In this document: piece by piece, positions 4,559 to 10,850 of the stretch
How positions within the stretch are numbered: position 1 is the first letter of the stretch
Layout: every line of letters begins with the position of its first letter
Program-made: the position numbers and the translations under genes
The notes under the pieces: model-generated
Told to the model about the DNA's origin: nothing
The model's input: the letters and a program-made list of their open reading frames with translations, nothing else
Database searches by the model: none
Source: Kiritimatiellia bacterium
Lineage (GTDB): Bacteria > Verrucomicrobiota > Kiritimatiellia > SLAD01
Length of the DNA: 51,155 nt
Direction: 5' to 3'
NCBI GenBank assembly: GCA_007134735.1
Contig: SLKG01000084.1
Location: 1-51,155, forward strand

Positions 4559-4735
4559 CGGCAAGAAAGAAAGAACGCAGAGACGCAAAGAACGCGAAGA
4601 CGCAAAGCTTGGAATTAACAGTATCCCAAATGATTTTTCATATGTTCGCGCGCGCGCGGCCCCTTTGGGAAAACATTATTTTCTTTGCGCCTCATCTTCT
4701 CTTTGCGCCTTTGCGTTTAAGAAAGGAATAATCCC
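4559..4735. repeat. Short inverted-repeat spacer (CGCAAAG family) between top6B and top6A
   Basis: The 177-bp spacer starts with several CGCAAAG/ACGCAGAG words (4575-4608). It ends with the opposite orientation, CTTTGCGCCTCATC and CTTTGCGCCTTTGCG (4684-4719). About 70 bp lie between, including an alternating CG run GCGCGCGCGCG near 4647. The words are the same as those in the large arrays at 5870-7086. No gene is present. The last 20 bp supply AAGGAA as the ribosome site of subunit A. It looks like a miniature, gene-less version of the downstream element. Confidence 0.8.
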
Positions 4736-5866: not shown

Positions 5867-5869
5867 AGA

Positions 5870-6345
5870 AAAAGCAAAGGCGGAAGAGAAGAGAGCGCAA
5901 AGGCGCAGAGGGAAGAGAAGGCGCAAAGAGGGAGATGGAGTAAAGGAAAGAGAAGGCAAAGGCGGAAGAGAAGAGAACGCAAAGGCGCAGAGGGAAGAGA
6001 AGGCGCAAAGAGGGAGATGGAGTAAAGAGAAGAGAACGCAAAGGCGCAGAGGAAGAATAAGGCGCAAAGGGGGAGATGGAGTAAAGGAAAGAGAAGGCAA
6101 AGGCGGAAGAGAAGAGAACGCAAAGGCGCAGAGGAAGAATAAGGCGCAAAGGGGGAATGGGTAAGGGAAGAGAAGGCAAAGGCGAAAGAGAAGAGAACGC
6201 AAAGGCGCAAAGGAAGAATAAGGCGCAAAGAGGGAATGGGTAAGCGAAGAGAAGGCAAAGGCGGAAGAGAAGAGAACGCAAAGGCGCAAAGGAAGAATAA
6301 GGCGCAAAGAGGGAATGGGTAAGGGAAGAGAAGGCGCAAAGAGGG
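5870..6345 (+). repeat. Left repeat array of the GxxExxY element (about 79-bp and 59-bp units)
   Basis: The array reads GCGCAAAGAGGGAGATGG, AACGCAAAGGCGCAGAGG, GAAGAGAAGG in about six units. GGCAAAGGCGG marks occur near 5873, 5955, 6096, 6175 and 6254, so most units are 79-82 bp; the unit near 6020-6080 lacks a roughly 20-bp insert and is about 60 bp. Purine-rich on this strand. It begins four bases after the top6A stop and ends at the GxxExxY stop. The same unit appears reverse-complemented at 6728-7086. Confidence 0.93.
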
Positions 6346-6346
6346 T

Positions 6347-6727
6347 TTATAATCCGTTGACTGCCCGGTGTATGCCCTTGGCCACGGTTTCTTCCCCAAA
6401 ATTGATCAACAGTCCCAGCTTCTTTCCGGTTATACGAAGATATGTAAGCAATTGCGCCTTATGTACCGGATGAATCTCATCAACAGCCTTGGATTCCACA
6501 ATGACCAAATCGCCAACAAGCACATCAAGAATCAGCGGTCTCGCCAATTTGACGTTCTTGTACATGACCGGGTAGTGCAATTGGCGGCCTACCGGAACTT
6601 TCTGCAGCTTCAGTTCGTGGCACATTGCCTCCTCATAAATGTCTTCCAGCAATCCCGGTCCGCCAAGCTCGCGATGTGCCTCTATGGCCGCCCCAATAAT
6701 GATCTTGCTCAACTTATTTTCATTCAT
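6347..6727 (-). CDS. GxxExxY protein, PD-(D/E)XK nuclease-like
   Basis: A 126-residue protein of the GxxExxY family (PDDEXK_3 superfamily); the cellular function is unknown. The name motif is present as G25-L-L-E28-D-I-Y31. A PD-(D/E)XK-like core follows: D68 and D73 in LILDVLVGD, then E78-S-K80 in VIVESKAV, and QLLTYLR, where Q92 fits the usual helix after the core. All putative catalytic residues are intact. The start ATG (6727) lies one base inside the right repeat array, so the ribosome site GGGAAG is made of repeat sequence. The gene is alone between inverted arrays, between convergent top6A and lpxC. Catalytic activity is inferred from motifs only. Confidence 0.9.
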   Translation of the reverse strand: MNENKLSKIIIGAAIEAHRELGGPGLLEDIYEEAMCHELKLQKVPVGRQLHYPVMYKNVKLARPLILDVLVGDLVIVESKAVDEIHPVHKAQLLTYLRITGKKLGLLINFGEETVAKGIHRAVNGL

Positions 6728-7086
6728 CTTTGCGCCTTTTCTTCCCTTGGCGCCTTTGCGTTCTCTTCCCGTTACCCCATCTCCCCCTTTGCGCCTTCTC
6801 TTCCCTCTGCGCCTTTGCGTTCTCTTCCCGTTACCCCATCTTCCCCTTTGCGCCTTCTCTTCCCTCTGCGTCTTTGCGTTCTCTTCCCGTTACCCCAGCT
6901 CCCTCTTTGCGCCTTCTCTTCCCTCTGCGCCTTTGCGTTCTCTTCCCCTTACCCCATCTCCCTCTTTGCGCCTTATCTTCCCTTGGCGTCTTTGCGTTCT
7001 CTTCCCGTGACCCCATCTTCCTCTTTGCGCCTTCTCTTCCCTTGGCGCCTTTGCGTTTTCTTCCTCTGCGCCTTTGCGTTCTCTTC
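6728..7086 (-). repeat. Right repeat array of the GxxExxY element (59-bp period)
   Basis: Six copies of CTTTGCGCCTTCTCTTCCC... start at 6728, 6787, 6846, 6905, 6964 and 7023, an exact 59-bp period. The last copy is altered by an extra TCTGCGCCTTTGCG segment. Copies differ by only a few substitutions, such as CTGCGCC/CTGCGTC/TTGGCGCC. The unit is the reverse complement of that in the left array, so the two arrays could pair or recombine. It ends about 10 bp from the lpxC stop. Confidence 0.95.
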
Positions 7087-7096
7087 AGTGGTCGGC

Positions 7097-8173
7097 TTAG
7101 ATCCCCACCCGCTCCAGCGCGTCCATCTGGTACAACCGCCGGACCATTTCGACATCCAGGGTATGCCCGGCCTTGTAGGAGGTGACGTGACCCACGAACC
7201 GTCCGCGGTCGATAAGCGCCAGCGCGGCCACGAGATCCAGCACCGCCCGATGCCAGACCGCCTCGAGGGATTTTCCGTCGTGTACCAGGCGGGGTTCGTT
7301 TAAATAGCGTTTGCGGCCGGCAATCAGTACGTTTTTCTCCGTGTAGCCCAGATTGCGCAGATCCGCGAATATCTTGCCGAGGGTATGACAATACAGTTTC
7401 TTCGAGGCGGAAGAGTTGGTCCGCGCTTCCGCTCCGTACCGAAAATTCTTGCGGGTAAGGGGAAATCGAATCCGCTGTTTCCCGATGGCGGTCTTAAAAT
7501 CCACGGCGCAATCGATCGTCAACATCGGCCGTTCGGGATCGCACGGCGCCAGCGAAAGAAAACTCCCGCCGTCTCCGCCGACCGTTACCGGCTCTTTCAC
7601 GGTCACATATTCCACCGGGTCCGATACTTCACGCGTACCGGCGCCCTCCAACGCCTGCACGAGGTCCAGACTGCCGCTGTCGAACAGGGGCGGATCGCCG
7701 GAATCCATCTCGATGATCAGGTTATCGATATCCGTGCCGAGCTTGAGGGCAATGATGTGTTCCACCATGCGGATATAATTTTCCGGCGGACCACTGCGCA
7801 GAACGATATTGCTGACGACGCCCCCGGTTCTCCACACATTATGCACGGATACCCGCACCGGAAGACGCCCGGCCAGGTCAACCCGGTTGAACCACCACCC
7901 CTCCTCCTCCGAGGGCCGCAACGTCACGGTGCGTTGTTCCCCGCACAAAAACGTGCCCGGTCCCTTCAGGGTTTTGGGCTCGATGATCGTGTTCTGTTTG
8001 CGCGGCGCCACGGGGCGCGCATCATCCAGGAGATCCCAATCCACCGGAATCGCCGCAAACCGGTCCCACGCGCGCCGGACCTCCCCGACATCCCCGGAAA
8101 TCACCAGGTCCCGGGCCGGATCTGTTGTGTGAATTGACATGACCCGCGCACTGTAGAGGAATCGTTTGGTCAT
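7097..8173 (-). CDS. lpxC: Divergent UDP-3-O-acyl-N-acetylglucosamine deacetylase (LpxC)
   Basis: LpxC commits UDP-GlcNAc to lipid A by removing the acetyl group with a zinc-activated water. The N-terminal half matches the family (TLKGPGTFLCGEQRTVTLRP, then FNRVDL), as does the first zinc/catalytic motif MVEHIIAL (E138, H139). IDNLIIEMDSGDPPLFDSGS matches the family's ID-VEVDGPE-PILDGS segment, and the catalytic SYKAGH (H337) is near the end. Two oddities: about 60 extra N-terminal residues, and the second zinc motif reads H-R-A-V-L-D where LpxC normally has HKxLD, so the histidine (H308) is five rather than four residues before the aspartate. Start ATG 8173 (358 aa) or ATG 8140 (MSIHTTDP). 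Divergent from ygeW. Confidence 0.82.
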   Translation of the reverse strand: MTKRFLYSARVMSIHTTDPARDLVISGDVGEVRRAWDRFAAIPVDWDLLDDARPVAPRKQNTIIEPKTLKGPGTFLCGEQRTVTLRPSEEEGWWFNRVDLAGRLPVRVSVHNVWRTGGVVSNIVLRSGPPENYIRMVEHIIALKLGTDIDNLIIEMDSGDPPLFDSGSLDLVQALEGAGTREVSDPVEYVTVKEPVTVGGDGGSFLSLAPCDPERPMLTIDCAVDFKTAIGKQRIRFPLTRKNFRYGAEARTNSSASKKLYCHTLGKIFADLRNLGYTEKNVLIAGRKRYLNEPRLVHDGKSLEAVWHRAVLDLVAALALIDRGRFVGHVTSYKAGHTLDVEMVRRLYQMDALERVGI

Positions 8174-9819: not shown

Positions 9820-9875
9820 GTTGCCCGAAAGATCCGGGAAAAACCCAGAGGCCCAATGTCACGTCGGCGGCTCCC

Positions 9876-9948
9876 CTGAACACTGAATATCCATCACGGC
9901 ATACTGAACACTGCCCACTGAATACTGCCTACTGACTACTGAACACTT
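9876..9948 (+). repeat. ACTGAA-type repeat, left arm
   Basis: A cluster of words such as AACACTGAATA, ATACTGAACACTGCCCACTG and AATACTGCCTACTGACTACTG. The reverse complement of the same words appears at 10449-10513, so the release-factor-like gene lies between inverted arms. Confidence 0.85.
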
Positions 9949-9966
9949 TCTCCCCCCCCCTCCCCC

Positions 9967-10380
9967 ATGCCATCCTCGAGCGTCACACCCCAAAAACAGG
10001 CCGGGCTTCAGCGCCGCATGGAAGCGCTGGGAATCCGCGAGGCCGATATCGAGGAACGCTTCATCAAGGGCTCCGGCCGCGGCGGGCAAAAAATCAACAA
10101 GACCTCCTCTTGCGTGTATTTGCGGCACTTGAATTCCGGGATCGAGGTCAAATGCCAGCAGGAGCGGTCACAGGCGCTGAACCGGTTCCTGGCCCGGCGC
10201 GAATTGTGCGACCGTCTCGAAGCGCAAATCAAAGGGGAACAAAGCCGGCGCGAGCAGGAACGCGAAAAAATCCGGCGTCAGAAACGCCGCCGTTCCCGCC
10301 GCCAAAAGGCGCGTATGCTCGAGGAAAAACGGAAACAGTCGGAGAAAAAGGCCCTGCGGAAACCGCCGGAGGAGGAGTAG
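9967..10380 (+). CDS. Release-factor-like peptidyl-tRNA hydrolase (GGQ domain only)
   Basis: A 137-residue protein with the catalytic domain of class I release factors but no codon-recognition domain, as in ArfB/YaeJ and related ribosome-rescue proteins. The GGQ loop is SGRGGQKINKTSSCVYLRH (GGQ at about 38-40), followed by SGIEVKCQQERSQALNR. The C-terminal 60 residues are almost all Arg, Lys, Gln and Glu, as in the ArfB tail that enters the empty mRNA channel, though longer and more helical. No Shine-Dalgarno site precedes ATG 9967, only a poly-C run; ATG 10015-10018 region (MEALGIRE) is an alternative. It lies between inverted ACTGAA-type arrays, suggesting an accessory location. Confidence 0.85.
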   Translation: MPSSSVTPQKQAGLQRRMEALGIREADIEERFIKGSGRGGQKINKTSSCVYLRHLNSGIEVKCQQERSQALNRFLARRELCDRLEAQIKGEQSRREQEREKIRRQKRRRSRRQKARMLEEKRKQSEKKALRKPPEEE

Positions 10381-10448: not shown

Positions 10449-10513
10449 TGGCAGTAGGCAGTGTTCAGTATTCAGTGTTCAGTGTTCAGTAGGCAGTATT
10501 CAGTAATCAGTGG
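10449..10513 (-). repeat. ACTGAA-type repeat, right arm (inverted)
   Basis: Words CAGTAGGCAGTGTTCAGTATT and TTCAGTAATCAGTGG are the reverse complement of those at 9876-9948. The last codons of the PIN remnant frame (10500-10850) lie inside this array, so the repeat has reached or truncated that gene's end. (Longest quoted word here is broken by the array's own period; see positions for the full stretch.). Confidence 0.82.
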
Positions 10514-10850
10514 TCATCCGGTTGTCACGGAATCGGGCGAGGAAATCCGCCGGCGTGAACACGTGAAAGGGCGCCGCCTTGATGAGCGCGCGGTTGCCGT
10601 GCAGATGCTTCCTGTCCAATATCACCAGCGCATCGGCCTTCGCGCGCGCGGCGTCAGCGACGATCTGCGCGTCGCCGGGGTGGCCCGCGATCCGGGTCCA
10701 TCGAGCGACCTCCGAAGGCGTCCCCGACGCGGTGACCGCGATGCCGCTCCGATCAATGAGAAGACCCAGAAAGGGTAGCAGGTCGGGCGCTTTCCAGATG
10801 ATAGCTCTCCCGGATTTCCTGCGGGATCGTAACCACACCGCGTTGTCCAA
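10500..10850 (-). pseudogene. PIN-domain toxin remnant (C-terminal half)
   Basis: The downstream two-thirds of this frame reads as the C-terminal half of a VapC-like PIN ribonuclease: LLPFLGLLIDRSGIAVTASG, then GHPGDAQIVADAARAKADAL, VILDRKHL and PFHVFTPADFLARF. The N-terminal half with the first catalytic aspartate (normally D-T-N near residue 5) is absent. The first 25 residues are instead the antitoxin coding sequence read in another frame. The toxin should therefore be inactive. It ends in repeat sequence. The call is a deletion-derived remnant; a short functional protein cannot be excluded. Confidence 0.75.

Follow-up and report, generated by a model that had tools for sequence, protein, structure and literature searches.

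GxxExxY nuclease-family genes between inverted repeat arms: a probable REP-like element, with an expanded copy in a Kiritimatiellia bacterium

Several described bacterial systems place a single gene between inverted repeats, including the RAYT/REP/REPIN systems, or REPtrons (Nunvar 2010, PMC2817692; REPINs, PMC3116915), the TIRtrons or TIRYT, in which TIRs enclose a Y1 transposase gene (Di Nocera 2013, PMC3733652), and the intervening sequences (IVS) of 23S rRNA with an S23/four-helix-bundle ORF, which are ~430 bp long and carry terminal inverted repeats with a 28-bp stem (PMC4990558). Here we report the analysis of a locus of this general outline in a Kiritimatiellia bacterium, found within a stretch of 51,155 nucleotides (contig SLKG01000084.1; hereafter the window), where a gene of the common GxxExxY family, which has no known function, lies between two arrays of the same repeat unit. 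We consider it probable (at roughly 0.6) that this locus is one copy of a widespread element, in which a single GxxExxY nuclease gene is enclosed by inward-pointing arms and works much as RAYT does on REP sequences. The element class is apparently undescribed and is probably selfish. Behind this reading stand the architecture itself, its enrichment at GxxExxY genes, the gene-less arm pairs, presence and absence at one orthologous site, and the covariation of arms and proteins.

In the window, the GxxExxY gene (6347-6727, minus strand; 126 aa, PF13366/TIGR04256, with Ser at residue 7) occupies a convergent gap with top6B, top6A and lpxC as neighbours. Its upstream, right arm (6728-7086, minus strand) is expanded to six units with spacings of 59, 59, 59, 59 and 59 bp (TRF, 59 x 5.7 at 6727-7064), and each unit contains the heptamers CGCAAAG-CGCAGAG...CGCAAAG reading toward the gene. 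The downstream, left arm (5867-6345, plus strand) consists of six inverted copies of the right-arm unit spaced 59-82 bp, with core spacings of 82, 59, 82, 79 and 79 bp, which in most cases equal 59 plus 20-23 bp; complementarity between the two arms reaches 85-93% over up to 158 nt. The original prediction, of six right-hand copies with an exact 59-bp period and an oppositely oriented left array with inserts of about 20 bp, thus described both arrays correctly. It also proposed that the ribosome site of the gene is itself repeat DNA, which is borne out by the leader AAGAAAAGGCGCAAAG-ATG, and that the arrays touch the gene and the stop codons of both neighbours, which holds for the gene start, 1 bp from the right array, and for top6A, immediately past whose stop the left array begins at 5867, but is slightly generous for lpxC, whose stop at 7097 lies ~10 bp from the array end at ~7086. 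A transcript of the window locus is predicted to fold into a single very long hairpin (-688 kcal/mol). Between top6B and top6A (4574-4717) lies a solo, gene-free, REPIN-like pair with heptamers of the same type as the arrays, composed of four CGC[AG][AG]AG units, a spacer and three CTTTGCG units, and part of it was also matched in the repeat search with the window unit. The locus is an expanded-arm version of the element, the usual form of which has a single ~30 bp arm per side; its arms have been amplified in tandem to arrays of 59-bp units, probably by slippage or repeated processing, with the gene kept intact.

Profile searches matched the window protein to PF13366 (E 7e-36) and TIGR04256 (E 7e-39), and its scores of 123.6 bits against a cut-off of 22 and 132.8 bits against a cut-off of 35, respectively, place it within the family. 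Across 24 homologues, D68 and K80 never vary and E78 and Q92 hardly do; all four are present in the window protein, which also carries the conserved Y96 as well as G25 and E28. Of the PD-(D/E)XK-like residues named earlier, D68, E78 and K80 stand, and D73 is not a conserved position. Q92xxxY96 forms a QxxxY motif, which is characteristic of RecB/Cas4-type nucleases. The structure predicted for the protein (pLDDT 84.6) places residue 7 within an N-terminal helix, and the nearest PDB folds in Foldseek were lambda exonuclease, LHK-Exo and Cas4 SSO0001, at weak E-values (>= 0.005) and with probabilities up to 1.0; a sequence search of the PDB gave no homologue. The modelled core fold carries the D, ExK and QxxxY residues, and the protein is a predicted PD-(D/E)XK nuclease of the RecB/Cas4/lambda-exonuclease type. 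Purifying selection on the GxxExxY protein is strong (dN 0.045, dS saturated). Assignment to a defence-system or phage family was rejected, as the window protein had no PADLOC or PHROG match, and so was a phage origin, with 0 GxxExxY matches in 50,697 phage records and none in three viral-contig scans.

The association between GxxExxY genes and flanking inverted repeats was scored by the strongest inverted repeat that pairs the 300 bp on the left of the conserved domain with the 300 bp on its right, with a threshold of >= 16. This threshold was reached at 66 of 87 GxxExxY loci in a first set and at 53 of 60 in a second, independent set (119/147 pooled, or about four in five), as against none of 28 rbfA and none of 23 ParE control genes of the same phylum (0/51). 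When both flanks of the same 87 loci were moved 300 bp outward, a single locus (1/87) passed, and dinucleotide shuffles of the first-set flanks reached the threshold in 0.5% of cases. The contrast with other genes that the original prediction had put forward as its check is thus found in both sets. All four GxxExxY genes in the window's genome are flanked by inverted repeats, and the four sets differ in sequence type. Isolates and members of other phyla share the layout, namely Chthoniobacter flavus and a relative, Bacteroides finegoldii, Gemmatirosa and Bernardetia, and a decayed, frameshifted copy in a Spirochaetia genome still shows the gene between arms. About a dozen loci were examined outside the window's phylum, of which around half have clear arms, and three of eight GxxExxY loci in plasmid records have arms by score.

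The element has a median length of 511 bp and a median arm of 31 bp. In the commonest class, the arm is made of three C-R-C-N-N-A-K heptamers pointing toward the gene and spaced 8-11 bp apart, about one helical turn, often preceded by a leader such as TTAAC; other arm classes are built of units such as RACAGGAT. Inward pairs of CRCNNAK heptamers on both sides were present at 39 of 97 GxxExxY loci and at none of the 80 loci drawn from three further gene families, a comparison that is partly circular, since the grammar was learned from discovery loci, as the alignment-based flank score was not. Of five arms tried, four hardly fold on themselves, and the arm from the window does so weakly (-5.1 kcal/mol).

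Arms also occur in many copies without the gene. The complete genome G131 contains 61 copies of the half-site CCACTAAT-N2-4-CACTAAT and none of a reversed-pattern control, and most of these half-sites form +++ / --- inverted pairs, commonly 45-110 bp apart, in a REPIN-like arrangement. Heptamer positions in these copies carry close to 2 bits and linker positions mostly 0.2-1.2 bits, values that favour the heptamers, because copy extraction tolerated one mismatch per heptamer; the spacer sequence varies from copy to copy, and some pairs contain nested heptamers of other types. The window-type half-site is present 57 times in its own genome (control 1) versus 0-8 times in ten relatives; a number of contigs in the draft assembly terminate in such repeats, which leaves some contexts unseen. 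Arm pairs are commoner in genomes with the cognate gene at the site (p 0.002-0.005, uncorrected for relatedness). No clean case of an empty site for a gene-less arm pair was found, the flanking repeats being different.

Comparison of orthologous sites shows gain or loss of the element. Upstream of a hemL-like gene, named by eye from its sequence, a CACTAAT-type element is present in five genomes of one genus and a CGCTAAT type in one, with a nested pair of types in one genome and a remnant in another, consisting of the 3' end and the right arm, and the site is empty in three genomes, where only 31-42 bp of repeat-free sequence is found. At a second G131 site, the gene is absent from three relatives. 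Inspection of the hemL site by eye revealed no target-site duplication; boundaries there are inexact and the empty-site relatives are ~75% identical. Three further genomes (G167, G154 and G155; L209-L211) have no GxxExxY gene upstream of hemL and carry short CCTATAAG-type tandem repeats in the same place, making the site a hot spot at which repeats of several types occur. In Sphingomonas parapaucimobilis (L170), the fatty-acid operon has a GxxExxY gene between fabD and fabG, directly preceded by CGCGAAG-type repeats.

For loci in different host families, the more alike the proteins are, the more alike are their arms, with a mean cosine of 0.14 at <40% protein identity and of 0.39 at 60-80%, and none of 500 permutations gave a trend as strong. 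In the discovery set, residue 7 was the top column covarying with heptamer position 5, and the prediction that Thr7 goes with G5 and non-Thr7 with A5 was fixed before the test on 60 new loci, 25 of which had callable heptamers. Thr7 was accompanied by G5 in 21/21 discovery and 9/9 independent cases (30/30), while non-Thr7 was accompanied by A5 in only 10 of 15 independent cases, and column 7 ranked second best in the independent set. The protein tree implies no fewer than 16 changes at position 5, and phylogenetic simulation on this tree gave p of about 0.001 for the independent set alone; two to three independent branch pairs change the same way and 0 the opposite way, too few for a sign test. 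The window conforms to this pattern, with Ser7 and CGCAAAG (position 5 = A). A strong link between heptamer position 7 and residue 95 was set aside as uninformative, reflecting one deep split of the tree. As a pattern in sequences, the covariation supports recognition of the arms by the protein, and part of it could stem from arm and gene being inherited together as a single unit.

Other repeats were observed in these genomes. Genes for four-helix-bundle proteins (S23/23S-IVP, TIGR02436; L067-L096) have flanking inverted repeats in 18 of 29 cases versus 0 of 51 controls, with arms composed of exact 7-bp tandem units (AGGAGTC, GTGAATC, AATGCGG and others), and are possibly a second, independent element class. 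Since these genes are also framed, framing alone is no proof that a gene moves its frame. In the window, inverted ACTGAAT / ATTCAGT arrays (9866-9950 and 10459-10520) surround an RF-1-domain gene (9967-10380), and a TTACTTC heptamer repeated 16.7 times (6-122) adjoins a gene identified as recD2-like from its sequence. Genome G131 has a 150-bp MITE with the 21-bp perfect TIR TTAGGGAGTGTTTTCAAACCC beside a GxxExxY gene (L175:6703-6853; ~13 copies, up to 99% identity), and a 260-bp partly palindromic repeat (L359:4314-4576) with ~12 copies of 92-97% identity in this one genome.

In the mechanism that we favour, the GxxExxY protein would bind the arms, probably via its N-terminal helix, and would cut DNA at or beside them in the manner of a RecB/Cas4-like nuclease. 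PD-(D/E)XK enzymes alone are, to our knowledge, not known for strand transfer. Host repair might then copy or move both the element and the gene-less forms derived from it, as has been proposed for RAYT/REP (PMC2817692). More tentatively, at somewhat under even odds, we suggest that a large and so far unrecognised class of bacterial REP/REPIN-like elements is moved by GxxExxY proteins, each of which would recognise three helically phased CRCNNAK heptamers, and that protein residues would set which heptamer, with residue 7 setting base 5.

The main competing explanation is that the arms are moved by another enzyme, with GxxExxY as a passenger or addiction gene. The majority of arm pairs are gene-free, the four-helix-bundle genes (18/29) are likewise framed by inverted repeats, and the RF-1-domain gene of the window lies between inverted heptamer arrays, so that framed single genes are not limited to nucleases, all of which would suit such a passenger. 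We nevertheless regard this explanation as unlikely: the two-sided CRCNNAK grammar is confined to GxxExxY loci in the comparison given above, the four-helix arms follow a different 7-bp grammar, a protein residue covaries with one arm base, and seven RAYT-like transposase loci, a small sample mostly from other phyla, were without CRCNNAK arms. Less likely still is a role in host gene regulation, in which the inverted repeats would act through RNA or DNA structure as a terminator, mRNA stabiliser or source of dsRNA. The long hairpin in the convergent gap of the window would agree with this, as would the other short inverted or tandem repeats at several gene-free sites in relatives; however, elements also lie between co-directional genes (the hemL site and fabD-fabG in Sphingomonas), they are gained, lost and swapped at their sites, the element has no match in Rfam, and conserved heptamers with variable linkers and spacers are better explained by protein binding than by base-pairing alone.

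Chance placement of arrays beside a nuclease gene in a repeat-rich genome was the remaining alternative, and occurrence of the repeats elsewhere in the genome had been named as a sign of it. The window unit is indeed present on 19 other contigs of its genome, none of which was found to carry a GxxExxY gene, but this does not overturn the link, because a REP-like system should include solo copies; the family-wide controls, by flank score and by heptamer pairs alike, all speak against coincidence and leave it a negligible probability. The original prediction of a selfish or recombination-based element rather than a chance pairing is therefore supported in outline by the flank test, and its proposal that the nuclease recognises the repeats gains support from the protein-repeat covariation.

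If GxxExxY proteins do move such a class, many unassigned intergenic repeats of the CACAGAG, CGCAAAG, CACGAAG and ACAGGAT types across bacterial phyla would acquire an owner, and the link to a repeat grammar gives the GxxExxY family a testable function. Through the residue-base covariation, recognition can be tested directly on small synthetic DNAs. We know of no PD-(D/E)XK enzymes that run REP-like elements, and with this element the REP-plus-nuclease lifestyle would have been invented a second time, independently.

Comparison with known systems places the element closest to RAYT/REP. In both, two inverted repeats enclose one small DNA-processing gene, the repeats are also dispersed without the gene, often as inverted pairs, and are commoner where the cognate gene is present, and repeat and protein covary. 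Thus, of the features that define REPtrons, the locus has flanking inverted copies of a dispersed repeat and the covariation; in place of the HUH Y1 tyrosine transposase of RAYT it has a PD-(D/E)XK protein matching PF13366/TIGR04256 only, and its arms are three direct heptamers and not GTAG-tagged palindromes. TIRtrons similarly have one gene between TIRs, some of which are repeat families, but their gene encodes a tyrosine transposase, and the RAYT-like loci examined had no CRCNNAK arms. The 23S rRNA IVS is a one-ORF unit of similar build, and related four-helix genes elsewhere in these genomes are flanked by inverted repeats; its protein is unrelated, however, the IVS is excised from RNA by RNase III, and the four-helix arms seen here are exact tandem units. 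Insertion sequences and MITEs of DDE transposases share TIRs and gene-less miniature derivatives, whereas the GxxExxY element has no transposase domain, the nuclease family being its sole match, no recognised target duplication, and variable spacers in its gene-less copies. The open full-text literature that we searched, which is limited in coverage, mentions GxxExxY only twice and in passing, without a functional study or a link to repeats. Because the locus did not qualify as a member of the known classes, and in view of this limited literature search, we judge the element to be new in kind. Its protein shares the predicted fold and the D-ExK and QxxxY motifs with Cas4, RecB and lambda exonuclease, and differs from them as a stand-alone protein of ~125 aa framed by arms.
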